Source: Bacillus rhizoplanae (GTDB lineage: Bacteria; Bacillota; Bacilli; Bacillales; Bacillaceae_G). Taken from it: a stretch of 64,000 nt of DNA. This document shows, piece after piece, positions 3,339 through 15,738 of this stretch. The DNA is taken from contig NZ_CAKJTI010000005.1 in the NCBI RefSeq assembly GCF_917563915.1, positions 124,001 to 188,000 of the forward strand, given 5' to 3'. The notes beneath the pieces were generated by a model that was not told the origin of the DNA, ran no database searches, and saw nothing but the letters and a program-made list of their open reading frames with translations. Each line of letters starts with the position of its first letter. Within the stretch, counting starts at the first letter, position 1. A program made the position numbers and the translations under genes.

Positions 3339-4115
3339 TTACCAGTGCTCTTTCCAGCTTTTATATAACATTTCTCGAAACAATACATTTAACTTCTCAA
3401 TGTCTATAACTAATCTCTTTTCTAGACCTTTCACATACTCCTCGTAATACGTAATTGTTCCTTCCAAAAATTCATTCAATGCTGTAATTTTTGGTCCTGC
3501 ATCCAGCTCGATACCTGCTTTTTTCTTCTCAAGCAGTTCCTCAATTTCTTTCAAAAGGTCTGCATCCAAGACTAATCCATTCACTAATCTTTCAAACTCA
3601 ACAGGCGGCAATGTTCCTTTCTCTTCTAACCATCTGCAAGCTAATATTGGACGTAATACATAAAAGTATTTCTTCAACTTTACTTCTTCACCTTGCAAAA
3701 ACGTGCGATAGTTTTTAGATGCCATATGTAAATAATGATACATCGTTGCTTTTAGATCAAAATGACTACTCATTTCCTGCAAACACTCCGGAAGATTTGA
3801 TGTCTTAGCGTATACAATTGGTGAAAGAATCCACTCTATCAAAGCTGGATTCGATTTAGAAAATAACTGTAATGCTTTACGGAGTTCCCAGCCGCTTATA
3901 TCAAGGGCATCGCTGATTGGATACTCAATGACATCCCGCTTTTGCTCAATTGATAGGTACCAGTCCATTCGATGTACGTATACAAAACGGACATCATAGT
4001 CACTATCTTTTGATGGAAAGCCCCACGCCCTGCTTCCGGATTCAACAGCGAAGAGAATCTTTACGTCGTTTTCGCTTTCAATTCGTTGTAACTCTAATTG
4101 AATTTTTTCTCTCAT
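3339..4115 (-). CDS. YcgL-type predicted nucleotidyltransferase
   Basis: 258-residue protein with the minimal nucleotidyltransferase signature: ESGSRAWGFPSKDSDYDVRF near residues 22-41, i.e. a GS motif followed by DxD-type acidic residues. Family members are often called YcgL or COG3541; the substrate is unknown. I place the start at the ATG at 4115, preceded by GAGAGTGA, because family similarity begins at MREKIQ; an upstream ATG at 4130 after GAGGAA is possible. The gene stands alone, with a bcr1 copy just upstream. Confidence 0.8.
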   Translation of the reverse strand: MREKIQLELQRIESENDVKILFAVESGSRAWGFPSKDSDYDVRFVYVHRMDWYLSIEQKRDVIEYPISDALDISGWELRKALQLFSKSNPALIEWILSPIVYAKTSNLPECLQEMSSHFDLKATMYHYLHMASKNYRTFLQGEEVKLKKYFYVLRPILACRWLEEKGTLPPVEFERLVNGLVLDADLLKEIEELLEKKKAGIELDAGPKITALNEFLEGTITYYEEYVKGLEKRLVIDIEKLNVLFREMLYKSWKEHW

Positions 4116-4245
4116 ATTTATCACTCTCATTTTTCTATCATTTCCTCGGAAATTCGACACCGAATCCAAAACACCTGCCTTTAGTATGGCATCTGCGATA
4201 ACATACATATACAAGTTTTCTATGTATGTCGTGTCTTCCTTTAAG

Positions 4246-4402
4246 ATAAAGTGAAACTTCCATCAGTGGGGGTTTTCTTCATCCCCCACTGATGGTTAGT
4301 TGAACCAATCGGGCTTTTACGGGCAGTTATCCCCCACCTATCTTCTTTGCTTCTCTCTGAATCTTGAGGTGGGGGTCTTACTGCCCGTTAATGCGGGATA
4401 AA
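4246..4402 (+). repeat. bcr1 element, copy 1
   Basis: 157 bp bounded by ATAAA on both sides (4246-4250 and 4398-4402), the TTTAT target duplication typical of bcr1. It contains the hairpin CATCAGTGGGGG/CCCCCACTGATGG, a central GAACCAATCGGGC, and a second stem formed by GGGCAGT...CCCACCT with AGGTGGG...ACTGCCC. No coding capacity. Intact. Confidence 0.92.
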
Positions 4403-4509
4403 ATGTCAATGAAGAGGATTCTCTATTTCTCAACTATACCTTCAAACACCACTCCTAAAAGACACTATTACATGTCACTTCCTCGTTAAGCAGGATAAGA
4501 TCTCAAAAA

Positions 4510-4541
4510 AATAACACCTTGGAAGCCAAGGTGTTATTTTT
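4510..4541 (-). terminator. Terminator of the double P-loop ATPase gene
   Basis: AATAACACCTTGG-aag-CCAAGGTGTTATT with T runs on both sides, overlapping the stop codon of the gene to its right. Probably works in both directions. Confidence 0.8.
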
Positions 4542-5646
4542 GCTCTTGTGATATTTTCTCTGCAATCCGTTCAAACTCAGCTTGAATTTCATCTTTAAGC
4601 GAATCCACTTTGTCAAAATCCATCGCTGTAATATAAATTTTCTCTAATTTGTCACGTACAGTTTTCGCTTTCGCTAAATAGGACATCGCTTCATTCATTT
4701 TTTCTCTATAGCGCCTTGATACATCTTGAATTTCTACTGCATATTTTTCATCTGTTCCCGGTGCAATAATGAGCTCATACATATCAATAATTTCATCACT
4801 CTCACGTGTCGGAAAATATTCATGAGGTGCTGTACTATCAAAAATTGCAAAGCCAAGCTCTCTTACAATAACCATATCAAGACTATTTGGATCAAAGCCG
4901 CAATGATATATCTCAACATCGAAGCCCTTCTCTTCAGCTGCCGCTGCTAATTTTTTTAACATCGTCGATTTTCCAGAACCAGGACGCCCTTTTATAAAAT
5001 AACGCTTCCGTACATCTTCCGTTAAATTTGGAACAAAATCAACTGCTCCTTTTGGCGTTGCGGCCCCTAAAAAACGATGCTTCACATTTGCTTGTTTCGT
5101 ACACGCTTTATCAGTAAAAAATTGCTGTATGAGCTGTTCTGTCAGCTCATTTGCTTTTTCAAAATCAATATGGTCAATATAAAACTTCTCCCACTCATCA
5201 TGAATCTCTAGCGCCGTCTTAAAACACGCATAAGCTGACTGAAACGCACTGCTCGCTTCTGATGTATAACGCATAATCTCATCTTTATGCGCCCCAAGTT
5301 GAGTAGAATCCCAAGCTACACCTAAGTTTACATACTCTTCTACAACGCCTGGCGCTTTCGGTTCAATAACATGCGGCGCTGTTCCATCAACAATTCCAAC
5401 TTGTAATGACGGAATAATCACACCATCAATCGAATTATTGTCAGACGAACAATGTAAAAATTCAATATCATACCCTTTCTTCACCCACTCACGACCAATC
5501 AGCTTCATAAGCGAAGATTTTCCTGTTCCAGGTCCACCTTTTAAAATAAACAATCGGTCTAATCCCGTTAAGTTCTCTTCAAATAAACTGTAAAATCCCC
5601 TTGCTGTATTACCGCCAGCATAATAATTTTTTATATTTCCTGTCAC
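4534..5646 (-). CDS. Double P-loop NTPase (PRK06851-type)
   Basis: 370-residue cytosolic protein made of two similar halves, each with a Walker A motif: GGPGTGKSS near residues 37-45 and GRPGSGKST near 220-228. Each P-loop is followed at a similar distance by a conserved stretch (EFLHCSSDNNSIDGV and EIYHCGFDPNSLDMV) and by a TAPH tetrapeptide, so the halves arose by internal duplication. No helicase or ABC signature is seen. The family is common in Bacilli and Clostridia but has no established function that I know of. Monocistronic, ending in the terminator at 4510-4541. Confidence 0.82.
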   Translation of the reverse strand: MTGNIKNYYAGGNTARGFYSLFEENLTGLDRLFILKGGPGTGKSSLMKLIGREWVKKGYDIEFLHCSSDNNSIDGVIIPSLQVGIVDGTAPHVIEPKAPGVVEEYVNLGVAWDSTQLGAHKDEIMRYTSEASSAFQSAYACFKTALEIHDEWEKFYIDHIDFEKANELTEQLIQQFFTDKACTKQANVKHRFLGAATPKGAVDFVPNLTEDVRKRYFIKGRPGSGKSTMLKKLAAAAEEKGFDVEIYHCGFDPNSLDMVIVRELGFAIFDSTAPHEYFPTRESDEIIDMYELIIAPGTDEKYAVEIQDVSRRYREKMNEAMSYLAKAKTVRDKLEKIYITAMDFDKVDSLKDEIQAEFERIAEKISQEQK

Positions 5647-5771
5647 TGCCTTTCACTCCCTTGTAAGCAGTTTCACTACATAAGCTACAATATGCAAACT
5701 GGGAAGAATAGGTGAATACCCATCTACAAATCAAAAAAGAGAAACTCATAACAGTTCCTCTTCATCTCTGA

Positions 5772-6947
5772 CTATTCATTTCTATATTTCTTTCTCCATG
5801 AATACAGAAGAAGGCTAAACATAACTACAGTTTGCAACATAATAATCGCCGCATCCCAAAAATATAAATTCGACATTGGTTTTTGCAAGTTAGGAATAGT
5901 TTGCTTCATCATATACACCGCTTGCGGAATATAAAACATAACTGCCAATGTAATTGTTACAGTAACGCCAATAACATAAAACAGGCCATAAAAACGAACA
6001 ATCTTCTCTTCGCCATTAAACAATTCACTATTGTTTACACGGAGTTTTGGAACAAACAGACCTTTTATATAACGCTTTCCATTCTCCATTAAATTATAAC
6101 AAGCCGTCATATTTTCAAACACATAATACAAATCTGTTTTCATATATATGCAGCATTGATATGCCATACGTAAAGTAGTATCAAATACAATAAGTGCAAG
6201 AATCCCTAATAATACTTGTGAATGGATTGGAAAAAGAAGTTGAATTATTAAAGCAATAAATAAAATAACTGTATCAAAACTCATTCCAGCTAAATACAGA
6301 ATGTTTCTCTCTTTAGCAGGCAACTTCCAAACAGATGACATATCTGTTTCAAGTACAACGAAAAACAACCGGTGTCCAAATTCAACCTTTGTCGGAAAAT
6401 CATACGCCCTAACCGCAAGCACATGTCCCATTTCATGAATAAACACCAAAACAAATGTAACAAAAGCCAAAACTAGAATATTAAACGTCATTACATTAAA
6501 CACAAACAAATCTTTATAGTTTGGCAATAAAGATGGATTTACGATAAACAAAGCGATATTCACTACAAAAAGAATCGCATAGAGCAGCATTGTCTTTTGA
6601 GTAAAAAAGAACTGACCAACCTTTGGAGAAATCCATGAAAACCCTAATTTCTCCTTCTCTTTCTTACAAACTATTTCCTCACCATCTACTGATTGAACAA
6701 GCTCTAAATCTAGCAGTTGCTCTGCAAAATCAAGCATATCGACGTCTTCTTCAGGATACTGTTCTTGTAATTTCTCTTCTACTTCTCTTAAATTGAATCC
6801 CTTTTGAATCATAGTAATTGCATCAATACAGATTGGAGGCATTTCATAAAATTCACCAGTTACTGCATCTTCAACAATGTAGTTTTTTTGATCATGACGG
6901 ATTTCTATGTTATGTAATATTAATGTTAAGTCATATATTAGTTTCAT
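5772..6947 (-). CDS. PqqD-like/M50 site-2-type membrane metalloprotease
   Basis: 391 residues. Residues 10-95 resemble a PqqD-type winged-helix leader-binding domain. Several membrane helices follow, and the zinc motif HEMGH lies at 171-175 inside a helix, with a possible third ligand in LAGMSFD near 222. This architecture matches M50 proteases of peptide maturation clusters such as YydH of the Bacillus epipeptide locus. The start is the ATG at 6947 after AAAGGTGAG; a GTG at 6956 overlaps that ribosome site. It lies 72 bases downstream of the 23-residue peptide gene, separated by a hairpin that may reduce read-through. Expected role: cleavage of the peptide in or near the membrane. That partnership is inferred from gene order. 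Confidence 0.82.
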   Translation of the reverse strand: MKLIYDLTLILHNIEIRHDQKNYIVEDAVTGEFYEMPPICIDAITMIQKGFNLREVEEKLQEQYPEEDVDMLDFAEQLLDLELVQSVDGEEIVCKKEKEKLGFSWISPKVGQFFFTQKTMLLYAILFVVNIALFIVNPSLLPNYKDLFVFNVMTFNILVLAFVTFVLVFIHEMGHVLAVRAYDFPTKVEFGHRLFFVVLETDMSSVWKLPAKERNILYLAGMSFDTVILFIALIIQLLFPIHSQVLLGILALIVFDTTLRMAYQCCIYMKTDLYYVFENMTACYNLMENGKRYIKGLFVPKLRVNNSELFNGEEKIVRFYGLFYVIGVTVTITLAVMFYIPQAVYMMKQTIPNLQKPMSNLYFWDAAIIMLQTVVMFSLLLYSWRKKYRNE

Positions 6948-6978
6948 AGTACTCACCTTTTTCTACAACAGCTGAAAT

Positions 6979-7012
6979 AAATAAAAAAGGATGCTTCGCA
7001 TCCTTTTTTATT
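6979..7012 (-). terminator. Terminator-like attenuator between peptide gene and M50 gene
   Basis: Perfect 15-bp stem AATAAAAAAGGATGC with a TTC loop and a T run, starting 8 bases after the peptide stop codon on the coding strand. Partial termination here would give far more peptide mRNA than protease mRNA, a common arrangement in precursor-peptide operons. Confidence 0.8.
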
Positions 7013-7019
7013 TGTATTT

Positions 7020-7091
7020 TCATTCCCACCATGGCCAATTGCACCACCAGCATCCTGTCAACTTCACTTTGTTTAGTTTACGAATTTTCAT
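7020..7091 (-). CDS. Putative 23-residue Cys/Trp-rich precursor or signal peptide
   Basis: ATG at 7091 to TGA at 7020-7022. The ribosome site AAGGAGGTGA six bases upstream is one of the strongest in the window. The product has a basic N-terminal half (MKIRKLNKVK) and an aromatic C-terminus CWWCNWPWWE: five Trp and two Cys in ten residues. It is too short for routine gene callers. It sits 27 bases after the stop of the HD-GYP gene and just before a PqqD-like/M50 protease gene, with a terminator-like hairpin between them. A short peptide next to a leader-binding membrane protease suggests a RiPP precursor or a processed pheromone; streptococcal WW-motif peptides processed by the M50 protease Eep are a loose parallel. 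I do not recognise a described family. Confidence 0.72.
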   Translation of the reverse strand: MKIRKLNKVKLTGCWWCNWPWWE

Positions 7092-7118
7092 ACCTTCACC
7101 TCCTTTTTAATTAACAAT

Positions 7119-8282
7119 TTACATCTTTTCTTTACAAGATAATTTTTGATGAGTTTCTTTCCAAGCAGGATACACTTTTGGAAACAATTCCACTAGATAG
7201 GGATCAAACTGTGTCCCGTTCCCTTCAACAATTCGTTTATACGCTTCTTCTAGTGGAAGTGCCGCTCGGTAAGATCGTGAAGATGTCATTGCATCAAAAG
7301 CATCTGCAACTGCTGTAACACGAGCGAGTAATGGAATTTCAATTTCTTTTAATTGATCTGGATACCCATTCCCATCCCAGCGTTCATGGTGAGAACGAAT
7401 CACACTAATTCCTCGTTGTAAACCTTCTACTCCTTTCATCGCACCCGCTCCAACAGTCGTATGCGTTTTAATAACTTTAAACTCTTCAGCCGTTAAACGA
7501 GAAGGTTTTGTTAAAATATGATCTGGAATATGTATTTTTCCAATGTCGTGAAGTAAACAAGCATAATAAAATTCTTTTAATTCATCTGCCTTAAATCGCC
7601 CTGTTTCTTTCGCCAATATAAGTGCATAAGCAGCCACTCGTTCACTATGTCCTCTCGTATAAGGATCCTTTAATTCTAAAGTTGCAATAACTCCTTTTAC
7701 TAACGCTTCTAATTGTCTATCGTATGAGTTTTTTATAACCCCTACATAACGTTTAAAATGCTTTAACAATATATAAGCTATAATAGATAACAAGAATATA
7801 GATATAACCGGTAGTACAACAGTAAATGATTGTAATACTAATCCAATTAAAAGATATTTACCTAACACTCCTAAAACAACGAACCAAAAAAAACGTGTGT
7901 TTAGAAACATAGGCGTGAATAAAATTGCAAATAACTCTACAATATTGCCACTTGCATATGCTCTTGGGTGCATTAAATAACTTCCTAAATCCTCTATAAT
8001 CGTTAGTAGGGTATAAACACTAAAACAAATATATTTTATTGATTGTTCATTATTTTTTTTAAAAACATAATACATCACTGGTAATAAAAGTACCATAATA
8101 ATATAAAACCACGGTCCCATAAAACTTGTAGACGTTGTGCTATTTTTCATAAAGTAAATAGGAAATATGTAATTACATAAAAAATCATATAATATAAAAC
8201 ATAAATAAAATAATGATATAAACCATTTGACAGTATTTCGTTCTTCCATTCTCACAACAGAACTAATTTCTAATTTCACCAT
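7119..8282 (-). CDS. Membrane HD-GYP domain protein (probable c-di-GMP phosphodiesterase)
   Basis: 387 residues. Residues 20-180 form about six membrane helices with an ASGNIVELFAILFTPMF segment that recurs in the neighbouring histidine kinase. The C-terminal part is an HD-GYP domain: HDIGKIHIPDHI from residue 245 and HHERWDGNGYP at 298-308, with all metal and GYP residues present, so it should hydrolyse cyclic di-GMP or a related dinucleotide. The start is the ATG at 8282, six bases after GGAGGG; upstream GTG and ATG codons overlap that site. The peptide gene follows by 27 bases, so the two are probably cotranscribed. Confidence 0.85.
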   Translation of the reverse strand: MVKLEISSVVRMEERNTVKWFISLFYLCFILYDFLCNYIFPIYFMKNSTTSTSFMGPWFYIIMVLLLPVMYYVFKKNNEQSIKYICFSVYTLLTIIEDLGSYLMHPRAYASGNIVELFAILFTPMFLNTRFFWFVVLGVLGKYLLIGLVLQSFTVVLPVISIFLLSIIAYILLKHFKRYVGVIKNSYDRQLEALVKGVIATLELKDPYTRGHSERVAAYALILAKETGRFKADELKEFYYACLLHDIGKIHIPDHILTKPSRLTAEEFKVIKTHTTVGAGAMKGVEGLQRGISVIRSHHERWDGNGYPDQLKEIEIPLLARVTAVADAFDAMTSSRSYRAALPLEEAYKRIVEGNGTQFDPYLVELFPKVYPAWKETHQKLSCKEKM

Positions 8283-8482
8283 ATTTCCCTCCATTAGATG
8301 CACGTACTCTAAGAAGTTATATTGTTTATTTTAATATGCAGCTACATAGTTAAGATGACCAATCATAATAATTCGCCATTTATCGACATTTTCCTCTATT
8401 ATAAATGAAATATTTTCTAAATGAAATAGATCGTCCCCCTCTTTAACCATACTTTTACATTTTATTTACTCATAATCATGTA

Positions 8483-8524
8483 TAAAAAAACTCTTCTTTC
8501 ATCGTTTGAAAGAAGAGTTTTTTA
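8483..8524 (-). terminator. Terminator of the histidine kinase gene
   Basis: Near-perfect stem AAAAAACTCTTCTTTCA with a four-base loop and T run, 10 bases past the kinase stop. It separates the kinase from the HD-GYP/peptide/M50 unit. Confidence 0.85.
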
Positions 8525-8533
8525 TACATATAT

Positions 8534-9769
8534 TTATTTTACCTCTGCCACCGGCAACATAACATTTACCTTTGTCCCAACGCCAATCTTGCTTTCAAAT
8601 ACTACTTTACCTTGATGCTCTTCAATGATTTTATATGTAACCATTAGTCCTAAGCCCGTTCCATTTTCTTTTGTCGTATAAAAAGCTTCACCTATTTTAT
8701 CTATTTTCTCTTGATCCATTCCACATCCTTCATCAATAACACTCACTACAATCTGATTATCATGAACTAAATTTGCTTCTACAATAATATTACCGCCATT
8801 TGGCATAGACTCTATCGCATTTTTAATAATGTTAAGAAATACTTGTTTCATTTGTTTTTCATCACATTGTATAGATGGTAATGTTTTATCGATCATTGTC
8901 GAAATGGTAATGCCATATTGCGAAGCCGGCTGTTCTACAATATAAATCACATAAGCTAAAATATCTTTTATATTATGTAATTTATATTCTCTCTTTTTCG
9001 GCTTTCCAAGGACCATTAATTCACTAACAATCGTATTCATACGCTCAATTTCTTGCACCATAATGTTATAATACTCGACATCTTCAGGATGTTTTTCTCT
9101 CTGCAATTGCGTAAATCCTTTTAATGCTGTTAATGGATTACGGATTTCATGTGCAATCGTAGTCGCCATTTTTCCAACGACTGCTAGTTTTTCAGCTTGC
9201 TGCACTTCTTCAAATATTTTTGTAATAGTACGTACATACGATTTGAAACGTGTTAACAAAATAAAGGATATGATTGCGAGAATCGCACATAATACGATTG
9301 GGATAATAACCGTTGATATATGTAAGATAATCCCTAAAAGGGCATATTTCCCAATCATACCGAGCGAGACTAACCAAAAATATCGTTTATTCACAAAAAG
9401 GGGCGAAAACAGAACGAGAAACTGTTCTACTGCATTCCCACTTGCAAATTTTTGTGAGGCCCCTAGATAAATCATTATACTATTAAGTAAATCAATAAAG
9501 GTATATCCGAAAAATATGATATACTTTACAGCATACGGATTTTTCCTTTTTATTAAGTAAATTCCAATCGGCAATAACAGAAACATGAAAATATGCACTC
9601 CAAACCCTAATCCGCCTTCTGGAAAACCGATTGGCCGATCATCTATTTTCATTGCCGGATAAATAAAATAAAATATGATATCATAAGAGAAAAAAATAAT
9701 ATAAAACAAACTTAAAAAAAGCTTTAATGCTTTAATTTCCTCTTTTATGAGCATATCAGCTTTGTCCAC
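8534..9769 (-). CDS. Sensor histidine kinase with six-helix membrane sensor
   Basis: 411 residues. Residues 15-180 are membrane helices sharing ASGNxVExF, an FWxVxLG stretch and GKYxLxG with the HD-GYP protein. The kinase core follows: HEIRNP with phospho-acceptor H207, N box NIIKNAIES, G1 DEGCGM and G2 GTGLGL. No PAS or HAMP domain is visible and no response regulator gene is adjacent, so it is an orphan kinase; such orphans in Bacillus often feed the sporulation phosphorelay, but that is only a possibility here. The start is GTG at 9769, seven bases after AAGGAG. Its ligand is unknown; the shared sensor suggests the same signal as the HD-GYP protein. Confidence 0.87.
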   Translation of the reverse strand: MDKADMLIKEEIKALKLFLSLFYIIFFSYDIIFYFIYPAMKIDDRPIGFPEGGLGFGVHIFMFLLLPIGIYLIKRKNPYAVKYIIFFGYTFIDLLNSIMIYLGASQKFASGNAVEQFLVLFSPLFVNKRYFWLVSLGMIGKYALLGIILHISTVIIPIVLCAILAIISFILLTRFKSYVRTITKIFEEVQQAEKLAVVGKMATTIAHEIRNPLTALKGFTQLQREKHPEDVEYYNIMVQEIERMNTIVSELMVLGKPKKREYKLHNIKDILAYVIYIVEQPASQYGITISTMIDKTLPSIQCDEKQMKQVFLNIIKNAIESMPNGGNIIVEANLVHDNQIVVSVIDEGCGMDQEKIDKIGEAFYTTKENGTGLGLMVTYKIIEEHQGKVVFESKIGVGTKVNVMLPVAEVK

Positions 9770-9875
9770 GCTAAAACTCCTTTATACATAGCATCAATTT
9801 TATATACTACTTGTTATTTTATAAGAAAAAAACAAATTTATGAAACTATTCTTTCTAACATAGATTGTTATTCAT

Positions 9876-10354
9876 TAAACAAATTTTGTTTTCTTAAATA
9901 CTTTATTGATTCCCTCAACATAAGAGTGAAAACACATTAATAAAATATACGCCGCCCAATACTACAGTAGAGATAATCATTGTCATCAAATTATTCGGTT
10001 GTTGAGATACAGTAATAATTATACTGTACTTTATAACGTTAAAATCCAAAAATACCTTTTACTTATAAAAATAGGAACAAAGAAAGTTAACACAACTTCT
10101 ACAAAATTTCCACTTTCCAATTCAGCATCATCTCTTAAATACATTCGCACGTTACGGAAAATATATCCAAATAAATACCCTATTAAATATATATTTCACG
10201 ACATGTAGAATTTCTTTCTTTACACAATATATGCTAAGTAATAATAAAAGTAAAATGATCATACATAAAAAATAATATAAGCAAAATTAAACACCCATAA
10301 AAATAACTTGGCACTCTTCATTTCTTCTTCAAACAATATAGTATTTGGATTCAC
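9876..10354 (-). pseudogene. Decayed third copy of the membrane sensor domain
   Basis: A GTG at 10354 behind AAGGAG opens a frame reading NPNTILFEEEMKSAKLFLWV, similar to the kinase N-terminus, but it stops after about 31 codons. Further fragments in shifted frames match the same domain: ESGNFVEVVLTFFVPIFISK (compare SGNAVEQFLVLFSPLFVNK), RYFWIL, and LMCFHSYVEGINKVFKK (compare LLTRFKSYVRTITKIF). At least two frameshifts and two stops are present, the middle is shortened, and no kinase or HD-GYP domain follows. It is a degraded paralogue of the two downstream genes. Confidence 0.75.
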
Positions 10355-10451
10355 CTTAGACTCCTTTGCGTGTTTATATAATTGAGAATAAAAAATGTTT
10401 CCAATGTTTTATTATATCGATAAAAAAACAACCTACAATCCTACTTTAAAA

Positions 10452-10609
10452 ATAAAGTGAAACTTCCATCAATGGGGGGTTTTCTTCATCCCCCACTGAT
10501 GGTTAGTTGAACCAATCGGGCTTTTACGGGCAGTTATCCCCCACCTATCTTCTTCGCTTCTCTCTCAATCTTGAGGTGGGGGTCTTACTGCCCGTTAATG
10601 CGGGATAAA
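10452..10609 (+). repeat. bcr1 element, copy 2
   Basis: 158 bp with ATAAA at both ends. Same two-stem layout as copy 1, with one extra G in the first hairpin (AATGGGGGG). Located between the sensor pseudogene and the small excisionase-like gene. Confidence 0.92.
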
Positions 10610-15270: not shown

Positions 15271-15738
15271 TTAATATAAGAAGCAGGCAATCCATCTTGT
15301 AACTGCTACTTCATGCCCAGGAACCAAGTGCCACTTTCCAACCATATATGTAGCCATCCCATTCAACTTTAAGATTTCAGCTAAAGTGGCAGCAGCATCT
15401 GAAATTCTCCCTCGTTTATTAGGGTATTGAGGTCCCCAATCTAGTTCAGTTATAAATCCCATCCCCACAGAATGGCAGTTACGGCCTGTTAAAAGACAAG
15501 CACGAGTAGGAGAACACAAAGGGGCTACATTAAAATTATTGTAACGCAGGCCATTTTCAGCTAATGAATCAATATTAGGTGTTTCAATCTCTGAACCAAA
15601 GCAACCTAAAGCCGAGTAACCCACATCATCTAAAACAATATATATTACATTAAGCGCAGATTTTTTATTGGAACTTTCAAGTCCTGTCCTCAATCCCATT
15701 ACCATCTTTCCTTTCATACTGACAAGGTTTGTAAACAA
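15271..15738 (-). pseudogene. Truncated arylsulfatase
   Basis: Encodes about 150 residues that match only the N-terminus of an arylsulfatase: NVIYIVLDDVGYSALGCFGS with the metal-binding Asp pair, the formylglycine signature CSPTRACLLTG, and GKWHLVPGHE. Family members run to 500-780 residues. After GHEV the frame reads VTRWIACFLY and stops, while the +1 frame continues as LQDGLPASYIKKMNKKLLDT, probably the C-terminal tail left after a large internal deletion. The N-terminal start is uncertain (several ATGs between 15690 and 15720). Not expected to be active. Confidence 0.8.

Follow-up and report, generated by a model that had tools for sequence, protein, structure and literature searches.

Short hydrophobic peptide pheromones are processed by the M50 protease Eep and sensed by Rgg, and sensing of the diffusible signal factor (DSF) runs through the HD-GYP protein RpfG. 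Both systems share features with a small locus that we have analyzed in a 64,000-nucleotide stretch of Bacillus rhizoplanae DNA (assembly GCF_917563915.1, contig NZ_CAKJTI010000005.1, positions 124,001 to 188,000; the whole stretch is referred to here as the window). In this locus a gene for a 23-residue peptide lies between the genes of a membrane M50 protease and of a protein that combines a MASE12 sensor domain with an HD-GYP output domain. Like the precursors handled by Eep, the peptide has about 20 residues, a basic start and a hydrophobic C-terminal end, and it is accompanied by an M50 protease. However, the receptor candidate is here a membrane MASE12 enzyme and not a cytoplasmic Rgg (no Rgg regulator is adjacent: the neighboring genes in the window encode MASE12 proteins, the protease and an ATPase). 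The protease, moreover, carries a domain resembling the RiPP recognition element (RRE; RiPPs are ribosomally synthesized and post-translationally modified peptides) and is encoded beside the peptide. The likeness to DSF signaling lies in a cell-cell signal tied to an HD-GYP phosphodiesterase, although the suspected signal would in our case be a peptide encoded by a gene, and sensor domain and HD-GYP enzyme are here joined in one protein.

Other similarities are found among the peptides processed by membrane proteases. The daptide protease (MpaP; NCBIfam NF041824) also has an N-terminal RRE fused to an intramembrane site-2 protease and sits beside short precursor open reading frames (ORFs), according to the available text of PMC10036551. 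The epipeptide system has a short Bacillus precursor (EpeX/YydF) and a membrane M50 protease (EpeP/YydH) thought to cleave and export it, and the Pearlin proteases TglG and TmoG are membrane M50 enzymes acting on small scaffold peptides (both as given in the accessible part of PMC10885120). Differences appear in the accompanying genes. Neither the aminotransferase, methyltransferase and decarboxylase of daptides nor the radical S-adenosylmethionine (SAM) gene of the epipeptide locus was found among the neighbors scanned, namely six ORFs of the window (positions 3339-9769) and eight neighbors in two related loci (L001 and L003), the neighbors in other loci being grouped by clustering only. The window peptide does not have the terminal Thr from which the daptide end group derives. 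From the scaffolds of TglG and TmoG single C-terminal amino acids are released, unlike here, where there is no constant modifying enzyme and the whole tail varies. The NCBIfam daptide protease model gives the window protein 16.7 bits against a cut-off of 300 and is matched weakly by 20 of 32 members of its family (best E 4.3e-10), while the YydH/LiaK model is reached, also weakly, by two of the 32 (best E 0.0037).

Among openly licensed papers we recognized none that deals with a Bacillus CWWC peptide, with M50 proteases that have a PqqD domain and such precursors, with the sensor domain MASE12 or with HD-GYP proteins that sense peptides. The available portion of PMC12700454 does not name this locus, and that of PMC5816809 describes a count of the HD-GYP proteins of the B. 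cereus group and tests of the GGDEF/EAL ones. The locus looks like an undescribed peptide-signaling system among the peptide systems matured by site-2 proteases, the link from peptide to second messenger being a bold reading. We favor, with a probability of roughly 0.6, a three-gene module in which a CWxC peptide processed by the protease is sensed by the MASE12-HD-GYP protein.

The peptide gene and its conservation

The precursor peptide gene (positions 7020-7091, reverse strand) starts with ATG and encodes MKIRKLNKVKLTGCWWCNWPWWE, in which residues 1 to about 12 are a putative leader and the residues from about CWWC onward (codons at 7041-7052) a putative core. As stated in a preliminary description of this stretch, the last ten residues include five Trp and two Cys, and the bases preceding the ORF, ATTAAAAAGGAGGTGAAGGT, contain a strong Shine-Dalgarno sequence (AAGGAGG, 7099-7105, reverse strand) at good spacing. 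No Pfam or NCBIfam family matches any of the peptides tried, so that genes of this kind are easily missed by standard annotation.

A search of a genome collection with the window protease retrieved 41 loci at 39-55% identity, and these together with the window make up the 42 loci compared here. They bear the names of Neobacillus, Fredinandcohnia, Gracilibacillus, Ornithinibacillus, Bacillus spp. and one unclassified Bacillota bin. No close relative of the window region turned up among the matches from the collection, the best relatives of its proteins being at about 58% protein identity (best 15 matches per protein). A short ORF of the same kind was found 5' of the protease gene in all 41 relatives. 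The spacing between the two genes is mostly no more than about 80 bases, with 287 bases in L029 and about 1.9 kb in L013, the only locus with additional DNA at this point (4067-6000 of that locus).

The peptides share one architecture: a Lys-rich leader (typically MKIRKLKKVK), a Thr, the motif CWxC and a variable hydrophobic tail. Invariant over the 42 peptides are M1, L6, K10, T12, C14, W15 and C17, the last three being the first Cys, the first Trp and the second Cys of the window CWWC. In codons 2-10 of the leader, synonymous divergence (pS) is 0.82 and nonsynonymous divergence (pN) 0.093. For CWxC the values are 1.20 and 0.047 (the synonymous sites are few and saturated), and for leader and motif together 0.87 versus 0.077. 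In the first three codons of the tail, pS is 0.73 and pN 0.54, and an aromatic residue stands second in the tail in 37 of the 42. Constraint at the protein level is strong in the leader and the motif but not in the tail, and the unannotated ORF at 7020-7091 is a genuine gene. Trp occurs one to three times in each of the 41 relatives and five times in the window, so what is conserved is the Lys-rich leader with CWxC and a variable hydrophobic tail, not the five Trp. Since the Trp-rich ending is peculiar to the window, the likeness to WW-motif pheromones drawn in the preliminary description concerns a part that is not conserved, unlike CWxC. Loss of the frame or of the Trp/Cys pattern in homologous loci, which would have spoken against the original proposal, is not what we see, as the relatives retain both the reading frame and the Cys/Trp pattern.

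The protease

The protease gene (5772-6956, reverse strand) is listed with a GTG start at 6956, which is probably three codons too early; relatives align from residue 3-4, making the ATG at 6947 the likelier start. The product matches Peptidase_M50 (PF02163) with 29.4 bits, slightly over the cut-off of 27.2, and has the HExxH motif (HEMGH, 6423-6437, reverse strand) and the third-ligand Asp of site-2 proteases, with H174, E175, H178 and D275 unchanged in all 32 proteins aligned. By sequence the PqqD-like character of its N-terminus is weak (NCBIfam PqqD_rel_WgkC, E 0.0023, residues 16-68), and no solved structure was matched by the protease sequence. The predicted structure has an N-terminal winged-helix RRE (PqqD-like) domain, at about residues 10-92 (6681-6929, reverse strand), and a site-2-protease core. 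The Pfam match and the predicted fold agree with the membrane M50 protease with a PqqD-like domain that had been claimed downstream of the peptide. The further idea of a new RiPP or peptide-signal module is borne out as far as the conserved gene set and the fold combining a leader-binding domain with a protease go; modification, processing and a signaling role we infer rather than observe.

The MASE12-HD-GYP protein and the MASE12 kinase

Directly 5' of the peptide gene, after a gap of 27 nucleotides, the window has a gene (7119-8303, reverse strand) whose product matches MASE12 (PF20971) with 107.9 bits (cut-off 27) and HD_5 with 121 bits and is a predicted membrane-sensing cyclic-dinucleotide phosphodiesterase. 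A MASE12-HD-GYP gene is found immediately 5' of the peptide in 42 of 42 loci by motif, Pfam being in agreement for the window and for L032, L035 and L134. It is also adjacent, by profile, in 34 of 34 loci from the genome survey described below (ten of these share a contig with the first locus set). Its stop overlaps the start of the peptide gene in 19 of the 42 loci. The HD and HHERWDGxGYP motifs are intact and invariant in the proteins aligned (36 of 42), in keeping with the predicted phosphodiesterase. Among solved structures only the HD-GYP part of the sensor was matched by sequence, the closest relative being named a 3',3'-cyclic GMP-AMP (3'3'-cGAMP) phosphodiesterase; the usual substrate of HD-GYP enzymes is cyclic di-GMP (c-di-GMP), according to the available text of PMC5816809.

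A MASE12 histidine kinase (8534-9769, reverse strand, by Pfam) is a frequent but not constant neighbor. Of the 42 loci, 37 have it inside the stretch fetched, six of these on the downstream side of the protease, and a few copies are split or cut by contig ends. In the ten genomes that have MASE12 but not the peptide, every MASE12 protein is a kinase by profile. The loci concerned (L124-L133) come from genomes without peptide, MASE12-HD-GYP protein or this protease. One of them, L129, has the kinase as well as the genes that lie downstream in the Neobacillus locus, but not the HD-GYP, peptide and protease genes; the gap that remains aligns in part to DNA found just after the protease in relatives. 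In L126-L128 and L130-L132 the order is acetyltransferase-like gene, kinase, HtrA-like gene (both names read from N-termini), and in L134 the HD-GYP, peptide and RRE-M50 genes are placed between the kinase and the HtrA-like gene. This joint absence in two syntenic settings, with the kinase kept, indicates that the HD-GYP, peptide and protease genes are present or absent as a unit and that the kinase is independent of them, the direction (gain or loss) being undecided. The minimal system of peptide and protease suggested earlier has to be widened by an equally constant MASE12-HD-GYP gene. No modifying enzyme, exporter or immunity gene is a constant neighbor (among the clustered neighbors of the loci and in the Pfam scan of L001 and L003).

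Distribution among genomes

We have used profiles to survey 397 genomes drawn from the order and, in a class-wide draw, 378 genomes. These searches score only part of the candidates from a loose first look, so that absences are not absolute. When the peptide profile was run on the genomes of 23 of the 41 loci, all 23 matched, with one strong match each and a few weak additional ones (E 0.008-0.09). In the draw of the order it matched 43 of 397 genomes, once each, with E from 1e-7 to 1e-13. With the protease profile 60 genomes matched at 1e-10 or better, and the 43 of these with E below 1e-114 are those that have the peptide. The remaining 17 matches are weaker, one of them (G047) partial. An M50 gene without the ORF in most close relatives had been named as the result that would undo the proposal; instead this protease subfamily is accompanied by the ORF in 43 of 43 genomes. 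MASE12 was found in 52 of the 397 genomes, that is, in 42 of the 43 with the peptide versus 10 of the 354 others (p 6e-46 by Fisher's test, without correction for kinship). In the sole peptide genome without a MASE12 match (G088), the peptide is located 693 bases into its contig.

The class-level search matched 9 of 378 genomes, six already known and three new, and does not establish a spread outside the order. Plasmids gave no match to the window region or to the peptide of one relative. Distant relatives of the protease are present on 27 plasmids (the 20 matches listed are all below 30% identity), and HD-GYP proteins were matched there only without 80% coverage. No protease was found in phages, where the peptide was not sought.

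Covariation of the core with the sensor domain

Within the HD-GYP protein the MASE12 part is more variable than the output part (mean pairwise identity 0.44 vs 0.75, 36 proteins). Distances between peptide cores follow those between MASE12 domains when the HD-GYP domain is controlled for (partial Mantel r 0.40, 0 of 2000 permutations, 36 loci), and the reverse test, for the HD-GYP domain, gives r 0.004 (p 0.45). Controlling for the HD-GYP domain and all parts of the protease leaves r at 0.39 (p 0.0005, 29 loci), or at 0.27 (p 0.0005) in the 25 loci with CWWC only. With the equally fast MASE12 of the kinase as the control, r is 0.555 (p 0.0002, 31 loci), the reverse being 0.04 (p 0.29). Some results weigh against a specific pairing of core and sensor: with the larger control set the HD-GYP domain retains r 0.19 (p 0.006), the leader is associated with MASE12 as well (r 0.21, p 0.013), and the catalytic part of the kinase outperforms its MASE12 in covariation. 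A column-by-column search for a peptide-binding site in MASE12 likewise gave top positions that are mostly markers of one clade, HD-GYP positions among them, and was rejected. Since partial Mantel tests are too lenient on shared ancestry, we take the covariation as suggestive only.

Hairpin and sister loci

Between the peptide and protease genes the window has a terminator-like hairpin found by stem search (6979-7013, reverse strand; 16-bp stem, 3-base loop). Stems scoring at least 7 were found in 28 of 42 loci versus 17 of 210 base-shuffled controls, with a clear T run in 15 of the 28. A loose GGATG..CATCC-like pattern, for which there is no control, is present in 37 of the 42. Over positions 5000-10500 Rfam gave seven matches up to E 1, all below gathering scores and several on hairpins. 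A terminator 3' of the peptide gene implies that the peptide is probably made in excess over the protease. The hairpin also keeps a GGATGC..GCATCC-like sequence across genera, beyond what a terminator needs.

The weaker protease matches form a sister group, of which we fetched 18 loci (L106-L123), from 16 genomes without the peptide (one with two copies) and from a second copy in G168. A ThiF-like (ThiF/E1-like) gene lies near the RRE-M50 gene in each of the 18, by clustering (Pfam was tested for three). Seventeen of them contain between one and five short ORFs that encode about 20-26 residues and begin in a similarly basic way; in L116 no short precursor-like ORF was found. L106 has five related precursor copies, the first being MKIEVKKTEKLKPTYVPYAG, and in L106, L108, L111 and L112 some of the short ORFs end in GG. 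In L117, L119 and L120 the ThiF/M50 pair is joined by a gene for a product like a solute-binding protein (in L119, a Pfam match to SBP_bac_5) and by one for a transporter resembling the major facilitator superfamily, and each has three identical precursors ending in RPGT. Judged by these sequences, the sister group is probably an undescribed mini-precursor system. The vicinity of mini-precursor-like ORFs supports the view that this protease family handles mini-precursors.

Proposed mechanism and alternatives

Starting from the conserved gene set, the protein-level selection and the domain make-up (by profile and predicted fold), we infer the expression level of the peptide, its cleavage, release and sensing, and the output and substrate as follows. 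First, a short precursor would be made in which a Lys-rich leader precedes a CWxC core, probably in larger amounts than the protease. The RRE (PqqD-like) domain of the protease would bind the leader, and the site-2-protease core would cut the peptide, so that its CWxC core, short and hydrophobic, is freed to the membrane or across it. The HD-GYP protein would sense this core through its membrane MASE12 domain, altering the breakdown of a cyclic dinucleotide, most likely c-di-GMP, and the MASE12 histidine kinase may be an optional second listener. More tentative, and in our estimate slightly short of even odds, is the full version, in which the CWxC peptide is the ligand of MASE12, matured by an RRE-guided intramembrane protease without other dedicated enzymes and directly tuning a phosphodiesterase, MASE12 being a peptide-receptor domain. 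Its gene being locked to that of the MASE12-HD-GYP protein, the peptide is a concrete candidate for the MASE12 ligand, and such a link would join peptide signaling directly to a cyclic-dinucleotide messenger in Gram-positive bacteria. The reach of RRE-fused site-2 proteases is also suggested to extend past modified RiPPs, both by a precursor without a constant modifying enzyme and by the ThiF-like sister group with its mini-precursors.

The strongest rivals keep the peptide and the protease and give them another purpose. The processed peptide might be a RiPP-like product, antimicrobial or other, in which case the MASE12 proteins would do no more than regulate or sense damage. The daptide leader is removed by an RRE-fused intramembrane site-2 protease (available text of PMC10036551), the M50 protease EpeP is reported in the accessible part of PMC10885120 to be sufficient for production of the epipeptide EpeX, and the weak scores of the family with the daptide and YydH/LiaK models and a hydrophobic, Trp/Cys-rich core point the same way. 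But one strong peptide match per genome, the lack of a modifying enzyme, exporter or immunity gene among the constant neighbors, the fixed link to the HD-GYP gene in every locus checked and the results for plasmids and (for the protease) phages make this unlikely. We consider it just as improbable that the peptide stays in the cell as a membrane microprotein that binds the MASE12-HD-GYP protein directly and is removed or switched off by the protease (regulated intramembrane proteolysis). The same co-occurrence, overlap and covariation would be expected, and a short peptide with a basic N-terminus and a hydrophobic C-terminus and without an exporter as constant neighbor would suit it well, but the RRE-like domain predicted on the protease would rather suggest leader-guided maturation, and sister loci with several precursor-like copies look biosynthetic.

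Simpler readings of the ORF fare worse. A short ORF with Trp codons toward its end and a terminator-like hairpin a few bases on recalls an attenuation leader in which ribosomes stalling at Trp (or Cys) codons control the hairpin and the protease gene. A conserved run of regulatory codons is what such a leader should have; the Trp count varies from one to five across the 42 loci, the Lys-rich start is conserved as amino acids with free synonymous change, which an attenuator does not need, and five of the 42 loci do not have even the loose hairpin pattern (an alternative antiterminator was not looked for), leaving attenuation very unlikely. Chance, for its part, can appeal to the abundance of short ORFs (29 of at least 20 residues overlap positions 6300-8500 on both strands), but is refuted, to the point of being negligible, by the presence of the peptide in 41 of 41 protease relatives, a pN/pS of about 0.09 over leader and motif and a distribution over the same 43 genomes as the protease.

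Other genes in the surroundings

In 24-25 of the 42 loci (7340-11672 of L001 and its equivalents) the genes that come after the module encode a product unmatched in Pfam, a molybdopterin oxidoreductase, a 4Fe-4S protein and a Rieske protein. Elsewhere in the window, a 155-residue ORF at 15271-15738 reads like the first part of a sulfatase and is possibly a truncated gene.
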